DNA of 37,432 nt from Clostridia bacterium (GTDB lineage Bacteria > Bacillota > Clostridia > UBA1381 > UBA9506). The notes beneath the pieces were generated by a model. It saw only the letters and a list, made by a program, of their open reading frames with translations, had not been told where the DNA came from and did not search any database. This document shows, in pieces, positions 1-3,673 of this stretch; positions within the stretch are counted from its first letter, which is position 1; each line of letters starts with the position of its first letter. A program made the translations under genes and the position numbers. The stretch covers positions 1 to 37,432 of the forward strand of contig JAFWAT010000009.1 in assembly GCA_017507525.1 (NCBI GenBank), given 5' to 3'.

Positions 1-1006
1 TAATCTCCATAGTGGCAGGAATGATAATGCAGCGCACACCCTCTGCCACTTTGTTTCCCTTTAAAATGCGGTACGCCGTTTCCATATCCTCCATACGGCC
101 GTTGGTGCAGCTGCCGATTACCACCTGATCAATTTTAATATTAGAAAGCGCCTTTGCCTGTTTTGTATTGTCCGGCAAATGGGGGCAGCTGACTGTAGGT
201 GTAATGGCAGATAAATCAATTGTAATTGTTTTTTCATAATCGGCGTCTTCATCCGCTTCAAAAATAACAGGCTTGCGCTCGGTTCTGTTTTCCATATAGA
301 CAAGAGTCACCGCATCAACAGGAAAAATGCCGTTTTTAGCTCCGGCTTCCACCGCCATGTTACAAATGCAAAATCTGTCATCCATAGAAAGGCTTTTGAT
401 GCCCTCTCCGGTAAATTCCATGCTCTTATACAAAGCACCGTCAACGCCAATTATGCCTATAATGGTTAAAATCACATCTTTACCGCTGCAGTTTTTCGGG
501 AGGCTACCCGTCAGATTAAAGCGAATGGCAGAGGGCACCTTAAACCACGCCATACCGGTTGCCATGCCTGCCGCCATATCCGTACTGCCCACCCCGGTAG
601 AAAAAGCGCCCAGCGCCCCATAGGTGCAGGTGTGGCTATCGGCACCGATGATGCAATCGCCGGCGCAAACAACGCCTTGCTCAGGAAGCAGCGCATGCTC
701 AATGCCCATTTTGCCCACATCATAAAAATGGCTGATGCAGTGGGCGCAGGAAAATTCCCGACACTGTTTTGACTGTTCTGCCGCTTTAATGTCCTTATTA
801 GGAACAAAATGGTCTAAAACGATAGCAATTTTATCTTTATCAAACACCTTTGAAAACCCGGCTTTGCGGAATTCATTAATCGCTACCGGCGTGGTGATGT
901 CATTGCCTAAAACCATATCCAGCCGTGCGTTAATTAATTGTCCGGGACATACAAAACTGAGCCCTGCATGATGTGCCAGAATTTTCTGCGTCATGGTCAT
1001 ACCCAT
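1..1006 (-). CDS. leuC: 3-isopropylmalate dehydratase large subunit LeuC (partial, C-terminus outside window)
   Basis: Isomerises 2-isopropylmalate to 3-isopropylmalate, the second leucine-specific step, together with LeuD. About 335 codons are visible, beginning [15 protein letters not shown]. Aconitase-family signatures are present: [20 protein letters not shown], and SCTNGR near residue 299, whose Cys is one of three ligands of the 4Fe-4S cluster. The other two ligands lie beyond the window edge. The style matches the shorter (about 420 residue) archaeal/clostridial LeuC. The start is chosen because AAGGAG lies 9 nt upstream and the ATG overlaps the leuA stop as TGATG, so translation is probably coupled. 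Transcription comes from the leuA T-box promoter. leuD and leuB would be expected just outside the window. Confidence 0.95.
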
Positions 1007-2679
1007 CAGCCTATCTCCTTTTTCTTCATATTGTTAAATGCGCACAAGAGTGCATCCGCACTGGCATGGATAATATCCGTATTAGCACCGGCACCCCAAT
1101 ACATTTTACCCCGATCAGACTGAATGCCGATATATGCCGCCGCAATACTTTTAGAACCCTGCTCCTGCATGCTGTGTTCTGAATATGCCTGCAGGGTATA
1201 ATTTTCACCGGTATATGCCTTTAAGGCGTTGCTGACAGCGTCCAAAGAACCGTTACCCGCTGCAATAACCACCGTTTCCTCCCCGTTTTCACAGAAAGTA
1301 ATCTCTGTGCTGACCATGTCTTCACCACGGGTAAAATGCATGTCGGAAACGGTAATCGGAGACGCATCGATAAAGTAGTTTTCTTTGAAGATTGTATACA
1401 CTCTGTCCGGTTTTAATTCACGATGCTCCCGGTCGGAAATGGCTTTACACAAATAGCTCAAATCTTCACGCATACCGGCAGGCAAAACATAACCGTAGGT
1501 CTGCTCCAGCAAGTAAGCAATGCCGCCTTTGCCGCTTTGGGAGTTCACACGAATGACATCCGCATCATAGGTACGGCTGATATCCTGAGGGTCAATGGGA
1601 ATGTAGGGCACGCTCCATTTGTCCGGCTTGTTGTCTTCACGGTAGCGCATTCCTTTAGCAATGGCATCCTGATGGCTGCCGGAAAATGCAGCAAAAACAA
1701 GCGCACCGGCATAGGGCGAACGTTCATGCACCTGCATGCGTGTGCAACGTTCATACACTTCAATAATGGCAGGCAGATTTGAAAAGTCAAGCCCGGGATT
1801 TATGCCGTGGGAGAAAAGATTCAGTGCCAGAGTCACAATATCTACATTGCCGGTTCTTTCTCCGTTACCAAACAATGTACCCTCCACACGGTCAGCGCCG
1901 GCAAGAAGTGCCAGCTCTGTATCTGCAACACCGGTACCACGGTCATTGTGGGGATGGACAGATACGGTCACGTGTTCTCTGTATTTTAAGTTCTCACTCA
2001 TATATTCAACCTGATTGGCATACACATGGGGCAGGCTCATTTCAACCGTAACCGGCAGGTTAATGATAACATTGTTGCTCTCTGAGGGTTCCAACACATC
2101 AAGCACGGCATTGCAAACCTCGAGCGCATATTCAGACTCTGCACCGGTAAAGCTTTCGGGTGAATATTCAAAACGGAAATTTCCCTCATACTCCGATGCC
2201 ATTTTTTTCACCAGCTTGGCACCGGAAATAGCAAGCCTTTTAATCTCTTCTTTAGATTTTTTAAAAACCTGCTCCCGCTGTGCCACGCTGACGGAGTTAT
2301 AAAAATGAATAATTGCATTGGGTGCGCCCTTGCAGGCTTCAAAGGTTTTGCGGATAATATGCTCCCGGCTCTGGGTTAAAACCTGAATCGTCACATCCTC
2401 GGGAATCATATTCCGGTCAATCAAGGTCCGCAAAAACTCATATTCCGTTTCAGACGCTGCCGGAAACCCCACCTCAATTTCCTTAAAACCAACCTCGAGT
2501 AAAAGTTTATAAAACTCCAGCTTCTCGTCAAGGCTCATGGGAATAATCAGGCTCTGATTTCCGTCACGCATATCCACGCTGCACCAAATCGGTGCTTTTT
2601 CAACATGGTCTTTTTGCACCCACTTCGAATGCCCCTCCGGCGCCGGATAATAGCCAATGCCATATTTTGATGCATCCAT
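1006..2679 (-). CDS. leuA: 2-isopropylmalate synthase
   Basis: Condenses acetyl-CoA with 2-oxoisovalerate, the first committed step of leucine synthesis. The 557-residue protein starts [16 protein letters not shown]. It carries the DRE-TIM metallolyase signature around [13 protein letters not shown] and the metal-binding [16 protein letters not shown] motif, followed by [10 protein letters not shown]. The C-terminal third corresponds to the LeuA dimer/allosteric domain, where leucine feedback acts in the family. The frame is open further upstream to 2772, but that extension translates the T-box sequence and terminator, so the ATG at 2679 behind GGAAAGGGTGA is the start. The length fits the roughly 550-residue LeuA type with an N-terminal extension. 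The gene overlaps leuC by one base. Confidence 0.95.
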
Positions 2680-2710
2680 TATAAAAATCACCCTTTCCAC
2701 CTGGTAATAA

Positions 2711-2750
2711 GCAAAAACACCCGCCTCAAATATATCTTTGAGACGGGTGT
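2711..2750 (-). terminator. T-box regulated terminator
   Basis: A 14 bp stem (2750-2737 paired with 2730-2717, arms ACACCCGTCTCAAA and TTTGAGGCGGGTGT, with one G-T pair) and a 6-nt loop are followed by TTTTT on the minus strand. It lies just downstream of the T-box sequence, where the competing terminator should be. Confidence 0.93.
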
Positions 2751-2984
2751 AAAATAACACTCGCGGTACCACTCAAATTGCGCCAAAGGCGCCACTTCAG
2801 GCTCTAACAAACCCTTTTGCACTGACGTAGCATACACGAAAGGCACTACATAATTTCACGCCTTCAGCTCAGAAGTGAGGGGCCATTGGCAACACCTTTA
2901 TCGGCTCACACCAACCGCCGACTCTCTGAAAAAGCATCTGCCTGACCTTCTTCGTCATAGCTTTTAACAAGATTTATGTAATTT
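2711..2984 (-). ncRNA. T-box leader (leucine-type) of leuAC
   Basis: A leader of about 270 nt between the leuA promoter and leuA has T-box hallmarks. The stem I apical/AG-bulge sequence AGAGAGTCGGCGGTTGGTG lies at about 2925-2907. The conserved T-box GAGTGGTACCGCGA lies at 2774-2761. A terminator follows. A CTC triplet followed by A (2879-2877), just 5' of CTTCTGAGC, sits where the specifier codon is expected and would read leucine, which fits the downstream genes. In the family, uncharged tRNA pairs with the specifier and with the T-box bulge to stabilise the antiterminator. The specifier is inferred by eye, not by covariance search. Confidence 0.93.
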
Positions 2985-3168: not shown

Positions 3169-3197
3169 TTTACAACTTAATAAATTTGTGTTAAAAT
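3169..3197 (+). promoter_or_regulatory. Promoter of the structured leader RNA / Cys-rich ORF
   Basis: TTTACA (3169-3174), a 17 bp spacer and TAAAAT (3192-3197). The predicted start (about 3203-3204) coincides with the first base of the 12 bp outer stem of the RNA described next. Confidence 0.75.
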
Positions 3198-3202
3198 AAA
3201 GA

Positions 3203-3371
3203 TACCACATCACAATTAAATATGTCCGATTAAAATGCATACATACAAGAGAAACTATTTTTGGTAAAAGGTGTTCTCTCTTTCTCTTGTGTGTAGAAAT
3301 TAGTCGGTGTGATGTGGTAATCTAACCGAGGGAAACACTTTTTCGGCACATCCTTCGGGGTGTGCTTTTTT
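3203..3371 (+). ncRNA. Candidate riboswitch or attenuator leader RNA of unrecognised class
   Basis: Nested pairing forms a long rod. The outer stem pairs 3203-3214 with 3308-3319 (12 bp, perfect). An 11-nt bulge (3215-3225) sits on the 5' side only. The next stem pairs 3226-3233 with 3300-3307 (8 bp). After an internal loop, 3240-3254 pairs with 3281-3295 (15 bp), closed by a 26-nt apical loop. A terminator follows at 3346-3371. GATGTG (3311-3316), part of the outer stem, can pair either with CACATC at 3206-3211 or with CACATC in the terminator's 5' arm (3347-3352). Those are the mutually exclusive states of a transcriptional switch. I do not recognise a known class. A compact 6S-like RNA is an alternative, but the arrangement before an ORF argues for cis regulation. 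Confidence 0.6.
3346..3371 (+). terminator. Terminator between the structured RNA and the Cys-rich ORF
   Basis: GCACATCC (3346-3353) and GGGTGTGC (3358-3365) form 8 bp (one G-T) capped by a TTCG tetraloop and followed by six T residues. It ends 4 nt before the ribosome binding site of the next ORF, so it should control that ORF. Confidence 0.88.
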
Positions 3372-3388
3372 ATTGTGAGGTGAAAATT

Positions 3389-3595
3389 ATGAGAAAAAAA
3401 CAAATTATTTATGCAACAGGAACGCCTTTAAAGCCGTCTTGGCAGGGGCGTCGATGCTTGGGAAACGGCGAAAACCTTGAATATGGTTGTTGCTGTGATG
3501 AGTGCGATTATTACTTATTTTGCTTCCCGCAGTACGAATGGGAGTTCCAAATTAGCAGGCTTAAAAAACGAATGAAAAAGTTATTTAAAAAATGA
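3389..3595 (+). CDS. Small cysteine-rich protein, unknown function
   Basis: A 68-residue ORF starts at ATG 3389, with GAGGTG 7 nt upstream. The middle holds six cysteines (C23, C34, C35, C36, C39, C45), including a CCCDEC run and C-x5-C, a spacing that suggests metal binding or redox chemistry. The N-terminus and C-terminus are basic (MRKK; KKRMKKLFKK). There is no signal peptide or membrane segment. I do not recognise a family. Placement directly behind a structured RNA and terminator, with its own terminator behind it, supports a real, regulated, single-gene unit. Doubt remains because the ORF is short and no homologue could be searched. Confidence 0.62.
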   Translation: MRKKQIIYATGTPLKPSWQGRRCLGNGENLEYGCCCDECDYYLFCFPQYEWEFQISRLKKRMKKLFKK

Positions 3596-3619
3596 AAAAC
3601 CACCTGCGGGTGGTTTTTC
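3594..3619 (+). terminator. Terminator behind the Cys-rich ORF, probably bidirectional
   Basis: An 11 bp stem (3594-3604 with 3609-3619; core ACCACC and GGTGGT) and a 4-nt loop overlap the ORF stop codon. T-rich tails are present on both strands, so it can also end the minus-strand rlmD transcript that converges here. Confidence 0.85.
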
Positions 3620-3673
3620 ATTTTTTCGTCTCAATACGTTCCTTTATGGCTATATGAAATTTGTTTATAAAAT

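Follow-up and report, generated by a model that had tools for sequence, protein, structure and literature searches.

The 37,432-nucleotide stretch of Clostridia DNA analysed here (the window) carries one copy of a large multicopy structured RNA family of Clostridia that is absent from Rfam. Comparison with its relatives confirms it as a real structured RNA, and it is probably, with a likelihood of about two in three, a leader-type member of a family of pseudoknot-gated transcription attenuators. The parts of the RNA and its surroundings are collected in Table 1.

Table 1. Positions of the RNA, its helices and the neighbouring signals in the window, with the element found behind other copies of the RNA
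Feature	Position	Strand	Remarks
Promoter TTTACA-17-TAAAAT, TG before -10	3169-3197	+	promoter scan, 10/12 matches; predicted start ~3203
P1 outer stem, 5' strand, 12 bp	3203-3214	+	partner 3308-3319
P1 outer stem, 3' strand	3308-3319	+	includes GATGTG 3311-3316
P2 inner stem, 8 bp	3226-3233/3300-3307	+	
P3 inner stem, 15 bp	3240-3254/3281-3295	+	
P4 apical hairpin	3256-3262/3267-3273	+	
Pseudoknot 5' strand AAAAGGUGUUCUCUC, apical loop	3266-3280	+	15 standard pairs with 3328-3343
Pseudoknot 3' strand GAGGGAAACACUUUUU	3328-3343	+	one bulged A3335
Antiterminator 5' strand CCGAGGGA	3326-3333	+	8 standard pairs with 3351-3358
Antiterminator 3' strand UCCUUCGG	3351-3358	+	end of terminator 5' arm, loop and first 3'-arm base
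Intrinsic terminator GCACAUCC-UUCG-GGGUGUGC + U6	3346-3371	+	hairpin 3346-3365
Ribosome binding site GUGAGGUG	3375-3382	+	from sequence
68-codon ORF, six Cys	3389-3595	+	
Terminator-like hairpin after ORF, AAAAACCACC-TGC-GGGTGGTTTTT	3596-3627	+	from sequence
Element D, then second terminator	L141, L123, L119, L136, L137, L164, L145, L102, L131, L135		just after RNA terminator

A sequence-only reading had proposed an undescribed structured leader RNA at this site, and in this it was borne out by the lack of an Rfam match, strong covariation and a conserved transcription-attenuation layout. The promoter, the nested stems (12, 8 and 15 bp), the TTCG-capped terminator, the ribosome binding site and the six-Cys ORF that it listed are all in the sequence, as are the two CACATC partners that it gave for GATGTG (3206-3211 and 3347-3352). 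What it overlooked is the long pseudoknot between the apical loop and the stretch that separates P1 from the terminator, which the helix itself and its covariation show to belong to the RNA. The window RNA has a minimum free energy (MFE) of -62.9 kcal/mol (z -6.5), and none of 200 shuffles is as good. Estimated energies are -61.9 kcal/mol for the terminator state, -56.2 for the antiterminator state and -14.9 for the pseudoknot duplex, so that the two nested states lie less than 6 kcal/mol apart and the pseudoknot duplex would add about -15; as absolute values these are rough, and secondary-structure energies capture a pseudoknot incompletely. The small hairpin that had been drawn at 3326-3346 is present in the MFE structure of the window and is lost in relatives that lack CCG/CGG. 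Nothing in particular supports the suggestion that an 11-nt bulge is the sensing site; from one relative to another the bulge varies in both length and sequence.

The spread of the family was followed with a covariance model restricted to the 3' module, from the P1 3' strand to the terminator (R1), which was given a short calibration and searched in whole genomes. It matched 72 of 95 genomes of the window's order, with up to 25 copies in one genome, and 92 of 391 genomes of the class at E<=1e-6; in a phylum sample of 299 genomes, at E<=1e-7, it matched the window's own genome only. That genome holds six copies: besides the one in the window, C19 and C26 precede lipoprotein-like genes, and C8, C13 and C40 are gene-less. 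A covariance model, of 3203-3371, and an Rfam scan had both been put forward as checks by the earlier reading. Rfam 15 gave no match over the window RNA even at relaxed thresholds, the best overlaps at 3200-3372 being far below the cut-off (e.g. 21.4 against 46 bits), and a scan of 20 further class-wide loci at E<=0.05 returned tRNAs only. No description of the family was found in the open-access literature, subscription papers and preprints being outside the scope of that search. A search of plasmids gave no match to the RNA family. Two unannotated human-gut records labelled 'Bacteriophage sp.' (MT835845.1:2076-2230 and MT837627.1:2228-2354) hold a 77-79% similar copy of one type of the RNA, the compact type C.

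The comparison covered 133 distinct copies, 63 of them retrieved or identified from the Cys-rich ORF and similarity at the DNA level. Relatives fetched by way of the ORF mostly share one upstream layout of promoter, hairpin with apical UUGGYAAAA, U-tract, terminator and ORF, and a single nested hairpin plus pseudoknot is found in all types. Features outside R1 hold in the 133 copies, in which the adjoining promoter, outer stem, terminator and pseudoknot recur. The P1 5' strand was recovered in R1-fetched copies with a mean helix score of 33, compared with 17 for shuffled upstream sequence, and the loop strand of the pseudoknot likewise with a mean of 26 against 17; the 85 copies used for each include a few that are truncated or partial. 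Of 141 copies, 135 have a TATAAT-like -10 box next to P1, compared with 25 in shuffles.

The helices are also supported by compensatory change. An alignment of 31 type-C sequences (A3) has 92.2% of its cells paired, with 145 double-change cells against 55.6 in shuffled controls; slid controls were far lower, at 31-55% paired. An alignment of 35 type-A sequences that includes the window (A4) has 98.9% of cells paired and 89 double-change cells against 27.2, with slid controls again far lower. By helix, the paired fraction in A4 is 100% for P1, 98.3% for the pseudoknot and 98.6% for the terminator, and P1 and the terminator have changes on both sides. The pseudoknot strand reads AAAAGGUGUU.. in type A, AAAAAUGCGA../AAAAACGCAAAUUCC in type B and AAAAAUGCAUGCUC in type C, each with a matched partner.

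A further measure compared the duplex energy of each copy's own strand pair with that of strands swapped between copies. Across the 133 copies this gave z -41 for P1 (also computed at -14.6), -19.8 for P2 (the strands just inside P1), -9.2 for P4 and -22 for the terminator. The pseudoknot averaged -16.8 kcal/mol for own and -10.9 for crossed strands (z -27, also computed at -18), and its z was -8.1 on 24 non-redundant copies, a set that lessens, and does not remove, the pseudo-replication arising from same-genus copies that are not independent. Other strand pairs (loop with terminator arms, P1 with the terminator 3' arm, anything with the post-terminator region) gave no consistent coevolution signal. 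Conservation of sequence falls mainly on P1 (GCNACACAA), the AUA after P1, the A-tract and the U-tract; the outer-stem sequences of relatives are widely divergent, with pairing kept. In A3 and A4 together the AUA, A-tract and ACAA are conserved, and no compact unpaired pocket was seen. A U-A-U triple helix was considered and dropped on strand polarity.

These patterns bear on whether the element is a MITE-like repeat, dispersed and mobile at the DNA level, that takes promoter, RNA and terminator along with it. The number of copies per genome, recent tandem duplications with parts 95-98% identical and an inverted partial copy behind solo units (copies with no gene behind them) would all suit such a repeat, yet every helix has compensatory changes, the placement of the promoter and the position between terminator and ORF start are conserved, and orthologous solo loci are kept between species (L123/L141, L119/L129). 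No transposase recurs as a neighbour and IMG/VR holds no match to the consensus pattern of the RNA, and we regard this explanation as improbable. Two tandem pairs, at L174 and L175, are recent duplicates with 3' parts that are 96-98% identical. Their outer stems have diverged by changes on the two strands that compensate each other, which suggests selection to diversify P1.

The main reading turns on which antiterminator the RNA uses. The earlier reading had recognised the logic of a transcriptional switch, and was right in kind, given the attenuation layout, and wrong in mechanism, the signal being carried by the pseudoknot and a different antiterminator. Its own candidate, GATGTG with CACATC, shows no coevolution (z +1.5, n=133; z +0.3, p 0.60 on the 24 non-redundant copies), and forcing it in the window gives -44.0 compared with -61.9 kcal/mol, a cost of about 18. 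The stretch between P1 and the U-tract does coevolve with the terminator 5' arm and loop, at -12.8 kcal/mol for own against -9.8 for crossed strands (z -13.5, n=133). The signal is found within each type (z -5.8 in A, -2.5 in B and -8.1 in C) and in the non-redundant set (z -7.2; 0 of 300 permutations as low). In the window this antiterminator shares 3328-3333 with the pseudoknot and 3351-3353 and 3358 with the terminator, and the sharing of a strand between the pseudoknot and a terminator-excluding antiterminator is, in comparative data alone, conserved. Given this overlap with both, the best model is one in which a formed pseudoknot would mean terminator ON and an open one gene ON. The antiterminator is not tied to having a gene, because solo copies keep its signal too (z -4.3).

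On this model, RNA polymerase would start at the base of P1 and make P1, P2, P3 and the apical hairpin, after which the A-rich apical strand could form the pseudoknot with the segment that joins P1 to the terminator. That segment could alternatively pair with the terminator 5' arm and loop as the antiterminator. Formation of the pseudoknot would lock the antiterminator strand, allowing the terminator to form, an RNA of ~165 nt to be released and the gene to remain OFF; were the pseudoknot open or delayed, the antiterminator would form and read-through would turn the gene ON. P4 and the pseudoknot have the A-tract in common, and P4 may be a second balance point, with the balance between pseudoknot and antiterminator presumably set by a cellular signal, be it a small molecule, a protein, an RNA or a physical cue. 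The helices, their covariation and shared strands, the positions of promoter and terminator and the multicopy spread are evident from the compared sequences. The direction of the switch (pseudoknot equals OFF), the co-transcriptional timing and the existence of a balance-setting signal are inferred, the direction from strand overlap. The mechanism fits that of established pseudoknot-gated terminators such as preQ1-I, in which formation of the pseudoknot removes the antiterminator strand and permits termination.

The genes behind the RNA are varied. The 68-residue ORF of the window belongs to a family with the motif (I/V)DxTGxxLTP...CLGNG...CCCDECDYYLxCFP (alignment A5), and the homologue search that had been proposed found 201 relatives in genome contigs, mostly MAGs of gut or rumen Clostridia. 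It has no match in Pfam or NCBIfam, and a search of solved structures and an AlphaFold2 model (mean pLDDT 61) gave nothing useful. Several small ORFs recur behind the RNA, this family among them; in leader copies an ORF with a ribosome binding site usually lies ~20-100 nt behind the terminator. Among 55 downstream proteins scanned were Cu_amine_oxidN1 (7), BspA-type LRR (4) and NPCBM (4) proteins, and single examples of GDSL lipase, LiaF-like, DUF4230 and WG-repeat proteins, while many of the remaining proteins look by eye like signal-peptide proteins or lipoproteins, or are small and belong to no family. The seven Cu_amine_oxidN1 proteins, which are secreted and have the N-terminal (stalk) domain of copper amine oxidase, stand behind copies L096, L098, L101, L108, L111, L115 and L150 and recur across genera. 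No shared metabolic theme emerged among surface proteins, small ORFs and copies with no gene, and apart from downstream ORFs no conserved neighbour gene or trans partner recurs.

The earlier proposal that the RNA is a riboswitch or redox sensor specific to a cysteine-rich protein is largely refuted by this gene context. The pairing of RNA and Cys-rich ORF does recur in families that lie far apart within the class (L165, L182, L183, L186), but the RNA also leads Cu_amine_oxidN1, BspA-type LRR, NPCBM, GDSL, LiaF-like and lipoprotein genes, many small ORFs or none, and several homologues of the ORF lack the RNA (L035, L063, L065, L069, L072, L088), which makes a Cys-specific sensor very unlikely. 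Some of these RNA-less homologues have a divergent XRE-type HTH gene upstream. The guesses at metal, redox or thiol stress that were drawn from the cysteines are not warranted, losing their basis because the RNA is multicopy and stands before many unrelated genes, and often before none. Variation of the ORF argues similarly against a module like type III toxin-antitoxin systems, made up of structured RNA, terminator and small protein. Although ToxI and its relatives share the order of promoter, pseudoknotted RNA, terminator and small ORF, the ORF here varies by copy or is missing, no constant endoribonuclease or toxin family is found, the RNA has no array of tandem short repeats and the window ORF is not a known endoribonuclease; such a module is extremely improbable.

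A simple ORF/RBS heuristic assigns 102 of the 133 copies as leaders and 31 as solos (leaders in A 34/37, B 51/57 and C 17/39), a ratio biased by the 63 copies that the Cys-rich ORF or DNA similarity had led to. The solos raise the possibility, which we think rather unlikely, that the RNA works chiefly on its own, as a stable small RNA with an action in trans or a protein partner, while genes are expressed by leaky read-through and the antiterminator is incidental. Tandem copies with their own promoter and terminator (four in L059 and pairs in five further loci) and a P1 that begins where the transcript does, a trait of stable RNAs, are in keeping with this. Against it, the leaders have an ORF and ribosome binding site behind the terminator, the genes being unrelated, and coevolution of the antiterminator is hard to explain without attenuation. 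The four tandem RNAs of L059 (2063-2962) precede one Cys-rich ORF, and their spacers keep a ribosome binding site and a truncated 12-codon ORF start, the stop of which overlaps the next -35 box.

Many type-C solos have the 3' module repeated in inverted orientation 10-50 nt past the terminator (element D), and a second terminator comes after it. A second terminator is found within 150 nt in 19 of 31 solos and 5 of 102 leaders (shuffled, 0.2 and 2.6), though it may belong to a convergent gene. The complementarity of element D to type-B modules exceeds that of shuffled controls (-21.2 against -15.0, t -5.1), an excess not seen in the regions behind leaders. Within one genome it often prefers a sibling copy over its own: the D after L141 scores -44.3 with leader L142 and -33.5 with its own copy, those after L136 and L137 reach -39 with other solos as opposed to -22 and -24 with their own, and those after L102, L131, L132 and L135 score -27 to -32 with leader L134. 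We tentatively suggest, as a doubtful extension of the attenuator reading, a self-referential RNA network in which leaders would switch genes, and solo read-through RNAs ending in antisense D might pair with the switch region (P1 3' strand, linker and pseudoknot strand) of leaders and other solos, siblings over self.

Among the closest known systems, preQ1-I and other pseudoknot-gated riboswitches have the logic proposed here from comparative data, in that a pseudoknot locks the antiterminator strand and its stability sets termination. The family RNA is much larger, however, has no ligand pocket that we found conserved, precedes many unrelated genes and occurs as solo copies without an Rfam match. 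Most metabolite riboswitches have a strongly conserved unpaired pocket, and none was seen in the A3 and A4 alignments of the family RNA. T-box leaders (RF00230) likewise choose between terminator and antiterminator, and in the same kind of host, but no aminoacyl-related genes lie behind the family RNA, and the T-box model has no match at the window RNA, though it detects a neighbour at 2736-2967 (-). That T-box leader (99.6 bits), upstream of a leuA-like ORF at 1006-2772 (-), is an ordinary one. Multicopy bacterial small RNA families and the raiA (ModT) RNA of Clostridia are also widespread structured RNAs with stand-alone copies, whereas the family described here has no Rfam match, an attenuator layout and an antisense element behind solos.

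If the attenuator reading is correct, about one in four of the Clostridia genomes sampled, many from gut and rumen, would carry an abundant class of regulatory RNA that is missing from Rfam, behind which stand surface proteins and small proteins of no known family. Its three mutually exclusive helices would constitute a concrete and testable switch, and the solo copies a possible layer of RNA-to-RNA control. The signal read by the RNA would then offer a new approach to gene control in these largely uncultured bacteria.
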